From Chloroflexota bacterium (GTDB lineage: Bacteria; Chloroflexota; UBA11872; VXOZ01): DNA of 50,610 nt. The DNA lies in assembly GCA_026710945.1 (NCBI GenBank), contig JAPOQA010000031.1, positions 1-50,610 of the forward strand, written 5' to 3'. How positions within the stretch are numbered: the stretch's first letter is position 1; each line of letters starts with the position of its first letter. Made by a program: the position numbers and the translations under genes. Below, piece by piece: positions 22,148 to 29,810 of the stretch. A model generated the notes under the pieces. That model searched no databases. It was not told the DNA's origin and saw only the letters and a program-made list of their open reading frames with translations.

Positions 22148-22507
22148 TCACGTACTACACGGCCGGGCCTCACCGGCGCTCTCCGCCGTATCAAACGACT
22201 GGCCGCACGAGCACGACTGCTCGGCATTGGGATTGAGAATAGTAAACCCGCCGCCAATCAAGGCATTGCTAAAGTCGATTTCCGATCCGCTGAGGTACAT
22301 CAGGCTGAAAGGGTCCACAAAGACGCGCACGCCCTCGTCCTCAACCACCTCGTCACCGTCGTCCGGGCGCTCCTCCATGGACATGCCATACTGAAACCCG
22401 GAACACCCGCCCGGCGACACAAACACCCGCAGCCCCGCTTCCGGATTCCCTTGCTCCGTCAGCAGGCCCTTCAAATGCTCAACAGCCGTCGGCGTTACAG
22501 AAAGCAT
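22148..22507 (-). CDS. A-type iron-sulfur cluster carrier (IscA/ErpA/HesB family)
   Basis: A small Fe-S carrier of 119 residues. The three cluster ligands are Cys35 in SPGGCSGFQYGM and Cys99 and Cys101 in SCSCGQSF. The region GVRVFVDPFSLMYLSGSEIDF is also highly typical of the family, and length matches apart from a short C-terminal tail. It should hold and deliver Fe-S clusters to target proteins in the cytoplasm. There are no other ISC or SUF genes next to it. It lies at the left edge of the accessory island. Confidence 0.95.
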   Translation of the reverse strand: MLSVTPTAVEHLKGLLTEQGNPEAGLRVFVSPGGCSGFQYGMSMEERPDDGDEVVEDEGVRVFVDPFSLMYLSGSEIDFSNALIGGGFTILNPNAEQSCSCGQSFDTAESAGEARPCST

Positions 22508-22693
22508 CGCAATCCATCCTACCGGTTCAGCGCAACGTAAACTATCTAACTAATTCATACCTCTACCGCAATCCTACTGTTTCCAAACCTAGTAGTCAAG
22601 CGAAAAGCCCAACAGCACGTCTTGATCTAGGTCACAAGAGTCTTACCCGCTGGCCAAGACCCCTTACTTCTGCTCCGTTGCACGAATATGGGC

Positions 22694-22702
22694 TGCTATA
22701 CT
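22694..22702 (+). promoter_or_regulatory. Extended -10 promoter of the TIR-like module
   Basis: TGCTATACT matches the extended -10 element (TG, one base, TATAAT-like). It lies about 57 bases before the ATG of the first gene. A TTGCAC upstream is only 13 bases away, so the extended -10 would have to compensate for a poor -35. Confidence 0.4.
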
Positions 22703-22758
22703 GGATTTAGAGTGAGAGATCGAGGGTCTGTTGAGCAGATAGGCGGGGAGTCTAGACA

Positions 22759-23241
22759 ATGGAACTGGGCCAACTATTCAAGAATTTCAATCTGGAAAGT
22801 ATTAGCTTGTCCGCTGCGGCGATAAGCGCAGAGGTTTCCTTCCAAGAGACGGACAAAGACGCCGCCTGGGAACTCTACATTGAAATGCTGACCAGGATCA
22901 TCACGCAGCCTCTGCCGGCGGAAGCAGGAGACGAAAAGACCGCCCTGGACAGCGTGTACTCGCTCTTCCCAACTACCCGCGAGATATTGCGCAGGCATGG
23001 TCGCAAGACAATCACATTCAGTAAAGTCGCTATACCGGTTCTGAATCAGATAGTTCGGCCCTTCACCGCCAAATGGCATGGAGAATCCTTGGCCGGCGCT
23101 TTCGAGGACGAGCCAAAGCGGCTGGAGTTTCGCAAGGAACTCTCAGCCTTGCAGGTAGAACTACGCAACTACAACCGCCTGCTGGCAGAAATCGCCGGTG
23201 TAGAAGACTTGACGAACCTTGAACAGACAGAAGGGAGATAG
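22759..23241 (+). CDS. Conserved-looking small partner protein of the TIR-like gene, function unknown
   Basis: A 160-residue protein that looks mainly helical, without signal peptide or membrane segment. Recognisable blocks are WELYIEMLTRIITQPLP (about residues 41-57), DEKTALDSVYSLFPTTREILRRHG, then NQIVRPFTAKWHGESLAG and a final helix pair ending LRNYNRLLAEIAGVEDL. These blocks look like conserved family motifs, and I have the impression that similar proteins sit beside TIR-like genes elsewhere, but this needs a search. The stop is two bases before the TTG start of the TIR-like gene, so the two are translated as a unit. A GGGGAG site precedes the ATG. It is a candidate sensor, scaffold or regulator of the TIR-like protein. 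Confidence 0.8.
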   Translation: MELGQLFKNFNLESISLSAAAISAEVSFQETDKDAAWELYIEMLTRIITQPLPAEAGDEKTALDSVYSLFPTTREILRRHGRKTITFSKVAIPVLNQIVRPFTAKWHGESLAGAFEDEPKRLEFRKELSALQVELRNYNRLLAEIAGVEDLTNLEQTEGR

Positions 23242-23243
23242 CT

Positions 23244-23807
23244 TTGTATCAATCTCAAACTCCGCGTCACAGGACATTCATCAGTTTCCACCATGAGGAT
23301 CAGGAGTACAAGGATTATTTCGTTCAGATGCTAGGTGATGACATTGTAGATGAGTCTGTCAGCGACGGAGACATAGATGATGATAATCTTTCCACGGACA
23401 GAATACGCCAAATAGTTAGGGATGATTTCATTCGAGATGCAACCGTGACCGTCGTGCTAATTGGTCCCTGCACGTGGCAGCGCAAGCATGTGGACTGGGA
23501 GATTGGTTCTAGCTTGAGGTCTACGAAACGGAATTCCCGATGCGGACTCTTGGGCATCCTGCTCCCAAATCACTGGGACCGCCTTACAGGAAAATACAAC
23601 CCTAACTTGATACCGCCACGATTGGCGGACAACTGCATTGTCGACGATCCGTACGCTCTAATCTATGATTGGTCGAAAAACTCGACTAGGGTTCGAAAGT
23701 GGATCCATAGAGCCTTTGAGCGCAGGAGCGGCACACCGCCAGATAACAGTCGACCGCAGTTCAAGAACAACAGAAGTGGTGACTGCTACGACGGATGGAC
23801 AAGCTAG
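23244..23807 (+). CDS. TIR-like (DUF1863 / Thoeris ThsB-like) domain protein
   Basis: A 187-residue protein beginning with the TIR-like signature RTFISFHHEDQEYKDYF, which starts at residue 10. It continues with IRQIVRDDFIRDATVTVVLIG, then CTWQRKHVDWEIGSSL. The glutamate of the WEI motif (Glu86) is at the position of the catalytic Glu of TIR NADases. DUF1863/MTH538 TIR-like proteins include ThsB of Thoeris, which makes a cyclic ADP-ribose signal on phage infection. Here no ThsA (SIR2/SLOG) gene is present. The start is TTG, preceded by GGGAG, two bases after the upstream stop. Its strand meets the methyltransferase gene tail to tail. Base composition is lower in GC than in the core genes. Confidence 0.88.
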   Translation: MYQSQTPRHRTFISFHHEDQEYKDYFVQMLGDDIVDESVSDGDIDDDNLSTDRIRQIVRDDFIRDATVTVVLIGPCTWQRKHVDWEIGSSLRSTKRNSRCGLLGILLPNHWDRLTGKYNPNLIPPRLADNCIVDDPYALIYDWSKNSTRVRKWIHRAFERRSGTPPDNSRPQFKNNRSGDCYDGWTS

Positions 23808-23867
23808 AGCGACGCGTCCCGGCAAGCGACAATGGCACAGTGTGTCAAGATGTTGAGATGTAAGCAA

Positions 23868-25334
23868 TCACCGGAAAGCAACGCCTTCTTTCAGTTGCGT
23901 CAATTTTGATACCAGATACTCCATTGGTCTATCGCCCTTGATGCGATTGCACGAGGAGCACAGCAGTTGCAGGTTATCTATGTGATCGGTACCGCCCCGA
24001 GACTGTGGCACTACGTGGTCTACGTCGAATATCTTGAAGGGGAAGTCCATTTTGCAGCCGTTGCAGACACCCTCTTGCCGTCCGAATAGCACGTGCTTGT
24101 TCTGGCGGTAGTGGATAGGCGCATCAACGTCTGTACGCTTTGGTATGTCTTCGCGGGAAGTTACGAAGCCGTAGTGGTAGAGACTACCTAGCGCGCTTTT
24201 CAAGCGGAAGTTGACCAATTCCACGGCCTTAGGCGAGAGGTCAATTCCTACCCACTGTCGTCCCAGCGACTCTGCTGCAACGCAAGCGGTTGCGCATCCA
24301 GCGAAGGGATCTAGGACCACATCCCCAAGTTTGCTGGACGCCAATATGACGCGCTCCAAGAGCTTTAGGGGCTTCTGGGTTGGAAAGCCTATACGCTCTT
24401 TAGCTTGTGAATTGACCGCACTAATGTCTGTCCAGTTGTTGCTTGGCACTTGACCTGGGCTAGCGTCCAAGTAACGTTTGAGCTGTGGCACAGCCCCCTT
24501 AGTCGCATGGATGAGCATGTCGGCCTCTTCCAATGCGTCCAAGCGTGCCAACACGCTCTCAATCTCCAAGTATCCCGGTATTACATTTTCGTCAATCCAC
24601 TCAGCATACTTGCCGGATTTCGGAGCTGACCAGCAGCGCCCAATGTTTGAAGGGTCATAGTTTCGCCAGATCTGCCCACTCTCGCCCGCTGATAGGCCGG
24701 GACCCGTTAGGTTGTCCGTCCTATACCGACCTCTCAAATCTTCAAAGCTATAGTGACTCTTCACATACGAAGCGGCTAGAGGGGTGCGGATGGCATCAGC
24801 ATTGATAGGCGACGCGCCGTAAAAGAGGATTCTATCGCATACATTGCCAAATGTGCGTGAGTCGCTATGCGCGGTCGTTCTTTGCCAGTTGATTTCCGCC
24901 TTGTACAGTTTCGCTCCAAATGTCGCGTCCATGAGCATTTTGAGGTAGTGGGACGCCGTAGTATCACAATGTAAGTAAATGCTTCCAGCCTTCCTCAGTA
25001 CCCTCCGCATTTCAAGCAAGCGAATTGCCATCATGCACAAGTATGACTGCATGCCCTTGCCGTGTGTCAGTCTGGCCGCCTCCAACAGCTTGTAGATGGC
25101 AGGTTCCTGGTCGGCAATGAGACCCATCCAAGCCACGTCTAGGTCGGATAGAGTCCACGTATCCTTAAAGGCCGCTCCCGCCGCTTTGGAACCTACCGGA
25201 GCAGCATAGTTCTTGTTGGAGTTAAAGGGAGGGTCAAGGTAGATGAGGTCAACGCTCTCGCTATTCATGCCGCGCATGATATCGAGATTGTCGCCGGTGA
25301 AGATTGTGCGGTTAGCCCAGTTCGAAGTACCCAT
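23868..25334 (-). CDS. DNA adenine/cytosine-N4 methyltransferase fused to a C-terminal HNH domain
   Basis: A 488-residue protein with two modules. The first is an amino-methyltransferase of permuted (beta-type) order. Catalytic DPPF is at residues 34-37 (DLIYLDPPFNSNKNY), while the SAM-binding DPFAGCATACVAA lies near residue 350, followed by QWVGIDLS. From about residue 424 comes an HNH nuclease-like module: CNGCKMDF, then DVDHVVPQSRGGTDHIDNLQLLCSSC and NRIKG, with two CxxC pairs for zinc. A frame extension to 25469 exists, but it starts with TTG and lacks the usual N-terminus, so the ATG at 25334 is chosen. No separate restriction or specificity gene is present. It lies between the TIR-like and RelA/SpoT genes, which suggests a defence role. 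Confidence 0.9.
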   Translation of the reverse strand: MGTSNWANRTIFTGDNLDIMRGMNSESVDLIYLDPPFNSNKNYAAPVGSKAAGAAFKDTWTLSDLDVAWMGLIADQEPAIYKLLEAARLTHGKGMQSYLCMMAIRLLEMRRVLRKAGSIYLHCDTTASHYLKMLMDATFGAKLYKAEINWQRTTAHSDSRTFGNVCDRILFYGASPINADAIRTPLAASYVKSHYSFEDLRGRYRTDNLTGPGLSAGESGQIWRNYDPSNIGRCWSAPKSGKYAEWIDENVIPGYLEIESVLARLDALEEADMLIHATKGAVPQLKRYLDASPGQVPSNNWTDISAVNSQAKERIGFPTQKPLKLLERVILASSKLGDVVLDPFAGCATACVAAESLGRQWVGIDLSPKAVELVNFRLKSALGSLYHYGFVTSREDIPKRTDVDAPIHYRQNKHVLFGRQEGVCNGCKMDFPFKIFDVDHVVPQSRGGTDHIDNLQLLCSSCNRIKGDRPMEYLVSKLTQLKEGVAFR

Positions 25335-25577
25335 AGCGCCTTGGAGGACAAGGGCAAGCCACAGAGCATGAAAGTCATTGTTCTCTAATTCCGAGGCTTG
25401 CCCTAGATGCAGAAAGACAGCTTGATATACTAGCATAGGAGTATACGGGCCGCAATCCCTAAAGGACAAAGGTCATATACTCATGTCCATTGAAACATAG
25501 TGTTTAGCGTATCGACTTTAGAAGGATTGAATTGCCATCAGGGCAGCTCTCAATAGCAAACCTGCAAGGAGAACTCC

Positions 25578-25676
25578 ATGGCTGTTCGTAAAACTACGGC
25601 TGACAGGGGACAGTGCACTCAAGCTAAGCAAGAGAATAGTGCAGGAAAGTTGAGGCATTCAATATGGCATGGGTAA
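25578..25676 (+). CDS. 32-codon ORF overlapping the start of the RelA/SpoT gene
   Basis: An ATG at 25578 with a strong AAGGAG site seven bases upstream opens a 32-codon frame that begins MAVRKTTADRG and ends IWHG. The stop is 13 bases inside the RelA/SpoT gene, in a different frame. The ribosome-binding site here is better than that of the RelA/SpoT gene. It may be a leader peptide that couples or limits translation of the downstream gene, or a very small antitoxin-like peptide. It may also be chance. Confidence 0.4.
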   Translation: MAVRKTTADRGQCTQAKQENSAGKLRHSIWHG

Positions 25677-26704
25677 AGCCACAGTACACTAAAGAGAAAG
25701 TTGATGCTGCGGGTCGAGCACTAATCGACGAAGACTCAACAGCGAGCATTCACCTCGAAGAGACCCTAGACATCATCAACAACTGGCGGTCTTCACACGC
25801 TTTTCCATTGAATACAATGCAAATGAACTTGCGTGGAAAGGCTACGGATGCTGATTCAGGAAATCTAGTAGCTCAGCGCATTAAACGCCTCTCTTCCATA
25901 AGGTCTAAGCTTGAGCGCTTCGATTGGCTCACGCTCTCTGAGATGCAGGATATTGGAGGATGTAGGGCGGTCCTAAGGACGGTAAGTGCCGTGGAGGATG
26001 TAGCTCGGGCATTCAAGAACAGTAGGATAAAACACAGACTCATAAATGAGGATGACTACATTCAGTGTCCAAAGAGAACTGGATACAGGGGGCACCACCT
26101 CATCTACAGCTATTTCAGCGATAGGACTGAAACATATTGTGGCAAAAAGATTGAAGTTCAGCTTCGTTCAAGGTTACAGCACACTTGGGCAACAGCAGTT
26201 GAAACGGTTGGGACATTTACTAATCAAGCGCTAAAGTCTAGTCAGGGCGAAAAGGCTTGGCTGAGATTCTTTGTTTTGGTGAGCAGCGTGTTTGCAATAA
26301 AGGAAGAGAGGCCGATTGTCCACAATACATCAGAGGAACGCAACCAATTGGTCGACGAATTGAAACACTACGTTGAATGCCTAGACGTAGTGAATCGTCT
26401 TCGTTCCTATCAGGCTGCCCTTAGAGTTACAAGAACTAATCCCGTACTAAGACGAGCTCGTTACTTTCTCCTGGAACTTGAGCCGGAGCGTCCAGTTCTA
26501 AGAATCAGGAGTTTTCCATCCAACAGCCTCGAAGTAGCAACAGAGGAGTATTTAGAAGCAGAACAACGCCTAAGAACGAAAGTTGGTGGAGATGCGGTTC
26601 TCGTCTCAGTTGGATCATTAGACTCACTTGAGCGGGCTTTTCCAAACTACTATCTTGATACGTCAAGGTTTCTCGGTGAAATTGAAAGTGCCATAGCTCG
26701 ATAG
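25664..26704 (+). CDS. RelA/SpoT-domain protein, toxSAS/small alarmone synthetase-like
   Basis: A 346-residue protein with a single nucleotide-pyrophosphokinase (SYNTH) domain and no HD hydrolase domain. SYNTH motifs are RIKRLSSIRSKLER, then QDIGGCRAVL with Asp96, GYRGHHLIY with Tyr141 and His144, and IEVQLRSRLQHTWATAVE with Glu164 and Gln166. The N-terminal NNWRSSHAFPLNTMQMNLR block and the C-terminal region (residues 240-346, YFLLEL, LVSVGSLDSLERAFPNYYLDT) look like fixed parts of this family rather than TGS or ACT domains. Members without hydrolase are either alarmone synthetases or toxins that pyrophosphorylate tRNA or make ppApp in phage defence. No protein antitoxin gene is adjacent apart from a 32-codon overlapping ORF. 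Codons are AT-richer than in neighbours, which suggests transfer. Confidence 0.88.
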   Translation: MAWVKPQYTKEKVDAAGRALIDEDSTASIHLEETLDIINNWRSSHAFPLNTMQMNLRGKATDADSGNLVAQRIKRLSSIRSKLERFDWLTLSEMQDIGGCRAVLRTVSAVEDVARAFKNSRIKHRLINEDDYIQCPKRTGYRGHHLIYSYFSDRTETYCGKKIEVQLRSRLQHTWATAVETVGTFTNQALKSSQGEKAWLRFFVLVSSVFAIKEERPIVHNTSEERNQLVDELKHYVECLDVVNRLRSYQAALRVTRTNPVLRRARYFLLELEPERPVLRIRSFPSNSLEVATEEYLEAEQRLRTKVGGDAVLVSVGSLDSLERAFPNYYLDTSRFLGEIESAIAR

Positions 26705-26942
26705 AGTCATCGAAAACTGCGTACTCTTGAATCTAGATAATGGTCGCCAAGGGTCTCATCAAGCTCTTGAATAGTATGCCTATTCTGGGAATCCTCACAT
26801 TGCAATTTAGTTAAGGTAGTAGGCAGCTATGAACGAAAGACCTAAACAATACCAGAATTGAGCATTCGGCGGTTTCCCTGTAGTTGATAGCGGTTAGGCC
26901 AAGTCATTGAATCTGGTTGACGCCAGTGGACGCAAGAATTCC

Positions 26943-26979: not shown

Positions 26980-27252
26980 GAGGCTGTGCTAGACGGGGAA
27001 CTAGCGGTGCCCTGCACCCGCAATCCGCTATAGCGGGGTTGACAGCTTTCCGTGAGGTTCGCGTTGTTTGGAGGCTGCTGCGTGGTAGCGGCGTTGATGG
27101 CTGGGTCTTGCGCGGCGAGAGGCCGTGAACCCCGTCAGGTCCGGAAGGAAGCAGCGGTAAGCGGTTACTTTCGGGTGCCGCAAGGAAGCTTGGCCGGAGC
27201 TAGCGCCACGTAAGCGCTTCAGGGAGCCGAATCGAAGGAAAGGCACGGCCTC
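26980..27252 (+). ncRNA. ffs: Signal recognition particle RNA, large bacterial type (with Alu domain)
   Basis: The apical domain is unmistakable: GTGAACCCCGTCAGGTCCGG followed by AAGGAAGCAGCGGTAAGCG. The 5' Alu-type block GCGGTGCCCTGCACCCGC followed by AATCCGCTATAGCGGGG is present as in large bacterial SRP RNAs. The ends GAGGCTGTGC (26980-26989) and GCACGGCCTC (27243-27252) pair over ten bases with one G-U. A T-rich TTTTCGTCTC tail follows as terminator. The length is about 273 nucleotides. It lies upstream of dnaX, an arrangement found in many bacteria. The RNA scaffolds Ffh for co-translational membrane targeting. Confidence 0.96.
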
Positions 27253-28097: not shown

Positions 28098-29810
28098 GTG
28101 TCGCGGGTGGTGTTGTACAACAAGTGGCGGCCGCAGACGTTTGCCGACGTGGTCGGCCAAGAGCCTACCGTGCGCACGCTGCAGAACTCCCTGGCATCCG
28201 GGCAGATCGCCCACGCCTACATCTTTGCGGGACCGCGCGGCTCGGGCAAAACTTCGCTGGCGCGCATCTTGGCAAAAGCCCTCAACTGCCTACAGGGCGT
28301 CCAGCCGGAACCATGCAGCAAGTGCGCCGCCTGCACGGATGTCGTGGAAGGCCGCTTCCTCGATCTGGTTGAACTCGACGCCGCCTCCAACCGGGGCATC
28401 GAGGATATTCGCGACCTGCGGGAGCGCGTGAACTTCGCGCCGGTGAGCGGACGCTACAAATTCTATCTCATCGACGAGGTACACCAACTCACGCCGGAAG
28501 CGTCGAATGCGCTCCTAAAGACGCTGGAAGAGCCGCCCGAACACGCCGTATTCGTGCTGGCAACTACCGAAATTCACCGGGTGCTGCCCACTATCTTGTC
28601 GCGGTGCCAGCGGTTCGACTTTCGCCGCATCCCCGTGCGGGCGCTGGTAGGGCGCTTGCAGGAAATTGCCGCTGCGGAGAAGGTCTCCGCCGATCCGGAA
28701 GCGCTGAACATCCTGGCGCGCATGGCCGGCGGCAGCGCCCGCGACGCGGTGAGCCTCTTCGATCAGGCAATCATTTACGCTTCCGGCGGCGTGACCGCCG
28801 AACAGGTGCGTGAGATGCTCGGCCTGGCCAACACGGCGGTGGTGGCCGAATTCGTCGATACACTCGCCCGCCGCGATACCAGGGAAGGCCTGCGGGTCCT
28901 TTCCCACGCCGCGGACCAGGGTTTGGACATGCGGCAGTTCGCGCGGGAGACCATCCGCTACTTGCGGGGTACGCTGCTTCACAAGAGCGGCATGGAAGCT
29001 GCCGAACTTCTTGAAATGAGCGAGGAAGAGGCCGCGCTCATGGATGGGTTGGCGGGGCGAATATCTCTCGCCGAAATCGTGCAGGCAATCAAGCTCTTTT
29101 CGGAAGCAGAGCAATCTTTGCGCTTGGGAGTTTTTCCGCAACTTCCGGTCGAGCTGGCATTGGTAGAGTTTTGCGCCGCTGAAGACTCCTCTCCCCCAAC
29201 ATCCACCAGACCTGTCGCACGGCGGGCGCCGGCGGGGGCTCCCCGACGAGAGGAAAGCCCATCTGTACCTCCGGCGAGCACGCCCGCTGCCGACAGTCCG
29301 CCGGCAACTCGAACCGGCACTACGGAATCGAAAGCTGATGCCGGCGATCCGGCCGCTGCCGACTCTCCAACGCCAAGCCCACAACCGCAAGCGGACCCGC
29401 CCCGGACGACGAATCTGGAAGACTCACCACTGGCCGAGATCCAACAACGCTGGGATGCCGTGGTGGACTCGTTCCGTAGACCAAACGTGCACCTGCGCGG
29501 TGTCCTGCGCGACTGCACGCCAAAGTCCGTACAGGACCGCGTGCTGACGTTGGAGTTTGCGCACGGATGGCACCGCGACCAAGTGCGCCAGCCGGACAAC
29601 CTCTTTCTCGTGGAGAAAGCCGTCGCGCAGACGATCGGCCGCCATTTTTCAATTGAGTGCACGCTGGCGGAAAAGGACTCGGCTGCAAGCCGCTACGAAA
29701 AGGACCCCGCCCATGACCCGGTGGTACGCAAGGCCCAGAAACTCTTTCCCGGTACCATCACATTTGAAGACTCCGACGAGGACACGCCCTCTTCAGCCGA
29801 AGAGATGTAG
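28098..29810 (+). CDS. dnaX: DNA polymerase III subunit gamma/tau
   Basis: The clamp-loader ATPase subunit of the replicative polymerase, 570 residues. The AAA+ module starts LYNKWRPQTFADVVGQE; Walker A is GPRGSGKT (residues 45-52). A zinc site is formed by Cys64, Cys73, Cys76 and Cys79 (CSKCAAC), Walker B is LIDEVH, and sensor/arginine-finger LSRCQRFDF follows. Residues from about 365 to 440 are a Pro/Ala/Ser-rich linker, then a tau-like C-terminal domain (LAEIQQRWDAVVDSFRRPNVHLRGVL). The start is GTG, with GAGGAG some 12 bases upstream. There is no obvious slippery stretch that would make a short gamma form. recR and ybaB do not follow it here. Confidence 0.96.
   Translation: MSRVVLYNKWRPQTFADVVGQEPTVRTLQNSLASGQIAHAYIFAGPRGSGKTSLARILAKALNCLQGVQPEPCSKCAACTDVVEGRFLDLVELDAASNRGIEDIRDLRERVNFAPVSGRYKFYLIDEVHQLTPEASNALLKTLEEPPEHAVFVLATTEIHRVLPTILSRCQRFDFRRIPVRALVGRLQEIAAAEKVSADPEALNILARMAGGSARDAVSLFDQAIIYASGGVTAEQVREMLGLANTAVVAEFVDTLARRDTREGLRVLSHAADQGLDMRQFARETIRYLRGTLLHKSGMEAAELLEMSEEEAALMDGLAGRISLAEIVQAIKLFSEAEQSLRLGVFPQLPVELALVEFCAAEDSSPPTSTRPVARRAPAGAPRREESPSVPPASTPAADSPPATRTGTTESKADAGDPAAADSPTPSPQPQADPPRTTNLEDSPLAEIQQRWDAVVDSFRRPNVHLRGVLRDCTPKSVQDRVLTLEFAHGWHRDQVRQPDNLFLVEKAVAQTIGRHFSIECTLAEKDSAASRYEKDPAHDPVVRKAQKLFPGTITFEDSDEDTPSSAEEM

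Follow-up and report, generated by a model that had tools for sequence, protein, structure and literature searches.

A 160-residue, predicted all-helical protein of no named family is encoded just upstream of a ThsB-like TIR protein in the 50,610-nucleotide stretch of Chloroflexota DNA analysed here (the window). Many distant bacteria encode a relative of this small protein next to a TIR gene, and the protein is therefore probably dedicated to partnering TIR enzymes in antiviral defence. To our knowledge, the activation of bacterial TIR enzymes and the route by which they act are understood for few systems only. We regard the chances as even that the pair is a mobile module of defence type in which the helical partner serves as an adaptor or regulator of the TIR protein.

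The two open reading frames are co-directional and separated by two bases (23242-23243), and their coordinates and spacing were exactly those given in the earlier note on this DNA. The TTG start codon of the TIR gene is preceded at about 7 nt by GGGAGA, and relatives start near the equivalent residue. The pair and the features surrounding it are listed in Table 1.

Table 1. Features of the gene pair and its surroundings in the window
Feature	Position	Strand	Remarks
Iron-sulphur cluster assembly protein	22148..22507	-	left flank of the island
Accessory island	22510..26940		4.4 kb; gene pair, methylase-HNH gene and RelA/SpoT-like gene
Short leader ahead of the pair	22694..22758	+	GGGGAG, ribosome-binding-like, about 8 nt 5' of the ATG
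All-helical (predicted) protein, 160 aa	22759..23241	+	ATG start; no named family; candidate founding member of a TIR-partner family
ThsB-like TIR protein, 187 aa	23244..23807	+	TTG start; catalytic-position Glu86
N6/N4 DNA methylase fused to HNH endonuclease	23868..25469	-	neighbour, outside the module
RelA/SpoT-domain protein	25664..26704	+	neighbour, probably separate; PADLOC candidate PDC-S33, E=3.5e-119
Large bacterial SRP RNA gene	26984..27248	+	right flank of the island; upstream of dnaX (28098-29810)

The TIR protein was confirmed to be of the ThsB-like (DUF1863) type proposed previously, as it matched the Pfam family PF08937 (ThsB_TIR) with E=1.2e-17 and 64.5 bits (cut-off 21.2), and the PADLOC ThsB model with E=2.4e-10. 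Glu86, which lies in a DWEI motif and had been suggested to occupy the catalytic position, was nearly invariant across an alignment of 27 sequences and fell in the same column as the Glu of the solved ThsB-type proteins of PDB entries 9b7d/6lhy, 8wcf and 9vyl. The predicted model of the protein (pLDDT 89.7) displayed a TIR-like order of strands and helices. A catalytic Glu was also visible in nearly all partner TIRs of the other loci. At L019:918-1535 the motif reads DWGI, with Gly replacing the catalytic Glu, and the second TIR that comes after it retains the Glu; by analogy with two-TIR Thoeris, a split between an inactive sensor and an active enzyme is possible at this locus.

Searches with the small protein detected no match at E<=1 in Pfam, NCBIfam or PADLOC, and none at E<=0.001 in PHROGs. 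The conserved blocks previously noticed in its sequence corresponded to seven invariant columns (A36, W37, E42, L63, S65, R74 and W106) in an alignment of 31 sequences, some of which share just 20-35% identity. The AlphaFold2 model (pLDDT 90.1, pTM 0.85) was almost entirely helix and predicted a helical bundle with long helices at residues 69-111 and 118-146. A Foldseek search of this model against the PDB and viral models yielded no match at E<=0.001; a VIA fold search returned unrelated helical bundles with Z scores of at most 8.2, which are uninformative for bundles of this kind; and a sequence profile search of the PDB produced designed helical proteins and chance-level matches, all with E>0.01. 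No match in the fold searches suggested an adaptor function.

Fifteen relatives of the small protein were recovered on genome contigs, and further relatives were found in the same phylum, in the class of Desulfospira, on plasmids and on viral contigs; a phage collection contained none. The relatives span at least six phyla, and their range covers Chloroflexota, Binatia, Desulfobacterota, Planctomycetota, Omnitrophota, Alpha- and Gammaproteobacteria, Cyanobacteriota and Actinomycetota. Members occur in the cultured Desulfospira joergensenii and on complete plasmids, so the family is no artefact of binning.

Proximity to TIR genes in other genomes, without which the earlier note's novelty claim would have failed, was observed at 37 of 41 loci when the small protein was used as bait and the TIR protein was not, with the TIR identity of the neighbours confirmed with Pfam. 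Loci were counted once per record or genome place (the window, L002-L017, L019-L031, L041 and L072-L081), and L018, which is the same place as L007, was left out of the count. Most pairs were co-directional and no more than 40 nt apart, with the TIR gene following the small gene at some loci and preceding it at others; at L029 an insertion sequence separates the two genes. The four loci lacking a TIR neighbour were L074, which lies at a contig end, L031, L079 and L081, the last of which has a neighbour that appears TIR-like by eye and has no Pfam match. The 3.5-Mb genome of the window holds two PF08937 and two PF13676 places; with about four TIR places in a genome of this size, adjacency by chance would be expected at well below 1% of loci.

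The reverse search, for TIR proteins at least 50% identical to that of the window, identified nine places among 400 genomes. The small gene was present at five of these nine and absent from three (two in genome G001 and one in G004), and the remaining place was at a contig end. Thus, members of the closest TIR subfamily occur without the partner in G001 and G004, and the partner is not strictly needed there. The proposal of a minimal two-gene TIR module therefore fitted many loci without holding generally. Distances among the small proteins correlated with those among their TIR proteins (r=0.85, n=18, 0/2000 permutations), and weakly so for the 14 closest pairs (r=0.38, 73/2000 permutations). 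This correlation supports joint transfer of the two genes, which by itself does not amount to binding.

Comparison of the loci showed that the small protein is not confined to DUF1863 TIRs: it occurs with many TIR architectures and, in rhizobia, as a fusion to a patatin-like protein. Beside the small gene were found ThsB-like TIRs, a TIR-NLR (L023, PADLOC E=9e-277), TIR-WD40 proteins (L028 and L029), an 857-aa protein combining TIR and caspase (PF00656) domains (L076:2393-4966), TIRs next to STAND-TPR (L013) and to ParA-TIR (L014), and TIRs next to MoxR and vWA-FGS-like genes (L077, where these follow the TIR, and L078); the STAND, ParA, MoxR and vWA names were assigned by eye. On three rhizobial plasmids (L024, L026 and L027) the small domain forms the N-terminus of a patatin-like protein, about 870 aa long, and TIR genes are adjacent. 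A second type of ThsB-like TIR followed by an Nmad2-type gene was observed at L004:6013-7193, L089:3264-4358, L021:1991-3104 and L027:3642-4775, with PF18753 confirmed in L021 and L027 and the assignment made by eye in L004 and L089. At L005:5001-9630, a KAP NTPase (PADLOC PDC-S20) lies between TIR modules arranged in tandem, and a second, interrupted copy of the small gene is also present.

Since the TIR and the small domain are constant among these loci and the sensors and effectors change, the most economical interpretation has the small domain acting on the TIR domain itself. In the mechanism that we infer, the TIR protein would be a ThsB-like NADase or NAD+ cyclase, and the small partner would bind it as an adaptor, scaffold or regulator. 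The partner might keep the TIR inactive, or it might assemble the active TIR oligomer upon sensing of an infection. Elsewhere among bacteria, the small domain would couple TIRs to a fused effector such as patatin or to a membrane anchor.

The surroundings of the pair point to mobility. A genome of the same genus (G002) has about 200 bp where the window has the 4.4-kb island; at the same site, G003 carries a P-loop NTPase of KAP-like sequence, and G004 a relative of the methylase-HNH gene together with another gene, the pair being absent. The G004 methylase-HNH relative adjoins a 250-aa protein without a Pfam match (L101:1638-2390). Elsewhere, the pair was found within type I restriction operons (L091, in the order HsdM-small-TIR-HsdS-HsdR, and L012; gene names by eye) and among integrases (L041), and one prophage (L022) carries it between a CI-like repressor and endolysin/holin genes. 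This setting is that of defence cargo, and from such context we infer an anti-phage role.

Thoeris comprises a ThsB TIR, which produces a cyclic ADP-ribose signal, and a ThsA effector that responds to this signal; two-TIR forms exist, such as the staphylococcal ThsA-B1-B2 (PMC12578639). The window pair resembles Thoeris in its ThsB-type TIR with a catalytic Glu, its compact operon and its defence surroundings, and two relatives (L004 and L019) carry a second TIR gene adjoining the first. It differs in having a helical protein of an unnamed family in place of a SIR2-SLOG, macro-TM or caspase partner. Consistent with the previous observation that an effector is missing, no ThsA-type effector was found beside the pair, where the neighbours are the Fe-S assembly, methylase-HNH, RelA/SpoT and dnaX genes. 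Lacking an adjoining gene of the SIR2, SLOG, macro or caspase kind, the pair does not fit the definition of Thoeris. On another contig of the same genome (C60 of G000; L085:3010-5679), a TIR_2 protein, a SLOG cluster 2 protein (PF18163, E=4.9e-73) and a ThsB-like TIR lie in a row, and this cluster could supply a receptor to the window pair in trans. A TIR_2 and SLOG cluster 2 pair recurs at L026, beside the small-patatin fusion. The literature searched contained no description of the small partner, some Thoeris types lying beyond the literature covered; a 'type VI Thoeris' is named in one preprint (PMC13232231), and the pair may overlap a Thoeris type described elsewhere.

Two other groups of systems were compared with the pair. 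The window TIR matched component B of the PADLOC candidate PDC-M50 (PDC-M50B, E=8.7e-9, residues 9-95), but more weakly than the best ThsB model; component A was not recognised, as the small protein had no PADLOC match, and PDC-M50 gave no match for any of 30 small-protein relatives. Effector-associated domains (EADs), bacterial Death-like domains and TRADD-N are compact modules, in several cases helical, that connect TIRs, STAND or MoxR-vWA systems and effectors, and EADs have been described as pairing like with like (PMC8195603, PMC7159879). Some partners of the small domain (MoxR, vWA-FGS and GUN4-annotated proteins) are of the same kinds. In contrast to EADs, the small domain pairs with TIR proteins that do not contain it, and hmmscan against Pfam-A, the one comparison made with these modules, revealed no relevant match of the small protein.

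The helical domain might alternatively be the receiver of an ADP-ribose-type signal made by the TIR, taking the place of the SLOG or macro domain of ThsA; the module would then resemble Thoeris but have a novel receptor or effector. The domain stands alone in the window, and other lineages have it fused to patatin or a membrane segment, the Streptomyces copies having a hydrophobic segment at the N-terminus; the patatin fusions accompanied by separate TIR genes mirror the division in Thoeris between receptor plus effector and TIR; and the charged residues E42, R46, R74, R100 and R125 are conserved. Yet the usual form has 160 residues and no effector domain, the predicted bundle is without a recognised ligand-binding fold, and the domain also pairs with TIRs that possess effector or sensor domains of their own (caspase and NLR), for which a second receiver would be less needed. 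Because of the patatin fusions, we leave a signal-receiver role a minor but real chance.

A toxin-antitoxin-like arrangement, with the TIR as a suicidal NADase and its partner as an inhibitor that is lost or titrated upon infection, would account for the tightly spaced, mobile two-gene unit and for the swapped gene order, which toxin-antitoxin pairs also show. Such an arrangement is rather improbable given that related TIRs in G001 and G004 have no partner, that TIRs are not necessarily toxic before activation and that a patatin fusion would be odd for an antitoxin.

The RelA/SpoT-like protein (PDC-S33) was considered as the effector of a three-gene system that is split in the window by insertion of the methylase-HNH gene. 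The order small-TIR-RelA does occur at L007, without flanking synteny to the window, although this represents one genome (the same as L018 and L092), and the RelA gene is absent from the other small-TIR loci. Five other RelA relatives in the phylum have neither gene within 1.5 kb, and the RelA gene and the pair are adjacent in one other genome only; the RelA/SpoT gene was rejected as part of the module, and a three-gene system is very unlikely. Finally, a role for the small protein as an RNase effector of HEPN type that the TIR activates, brought to mind by its helical fold and by R100-x6-H107, a HEPN-like motif whose R-x6-H spacing is present in most members, was dismissed as extremely improbable, since H is replaced by Q in L068 and L069 and R by N or G in L064 and L031, Pro follows the R, hhalign against PF05168 members gave a probability of 0.1%, and hmmscan detected no Pfam match.

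The pairing of the small protein with TIR genes, its conservation, the mobility of the pair and the intact catalytic Glu are direct observations, and its fold is helical as modelled. With a likelihood that we place slightly short of even, the small protein founds a widespread, unnamed family of TIR partners, a general coupling part used across many TIR systems that, when fused, would deliver effectors such as patatin. The two-gene module is small enough for direct testing, and the small domain provides a marker with which to find further TIR systems. The occurrence of a TIR-adjacent domain across phyla, whether free or fused to an effector, suggests that TIR systems have an immune step in common.
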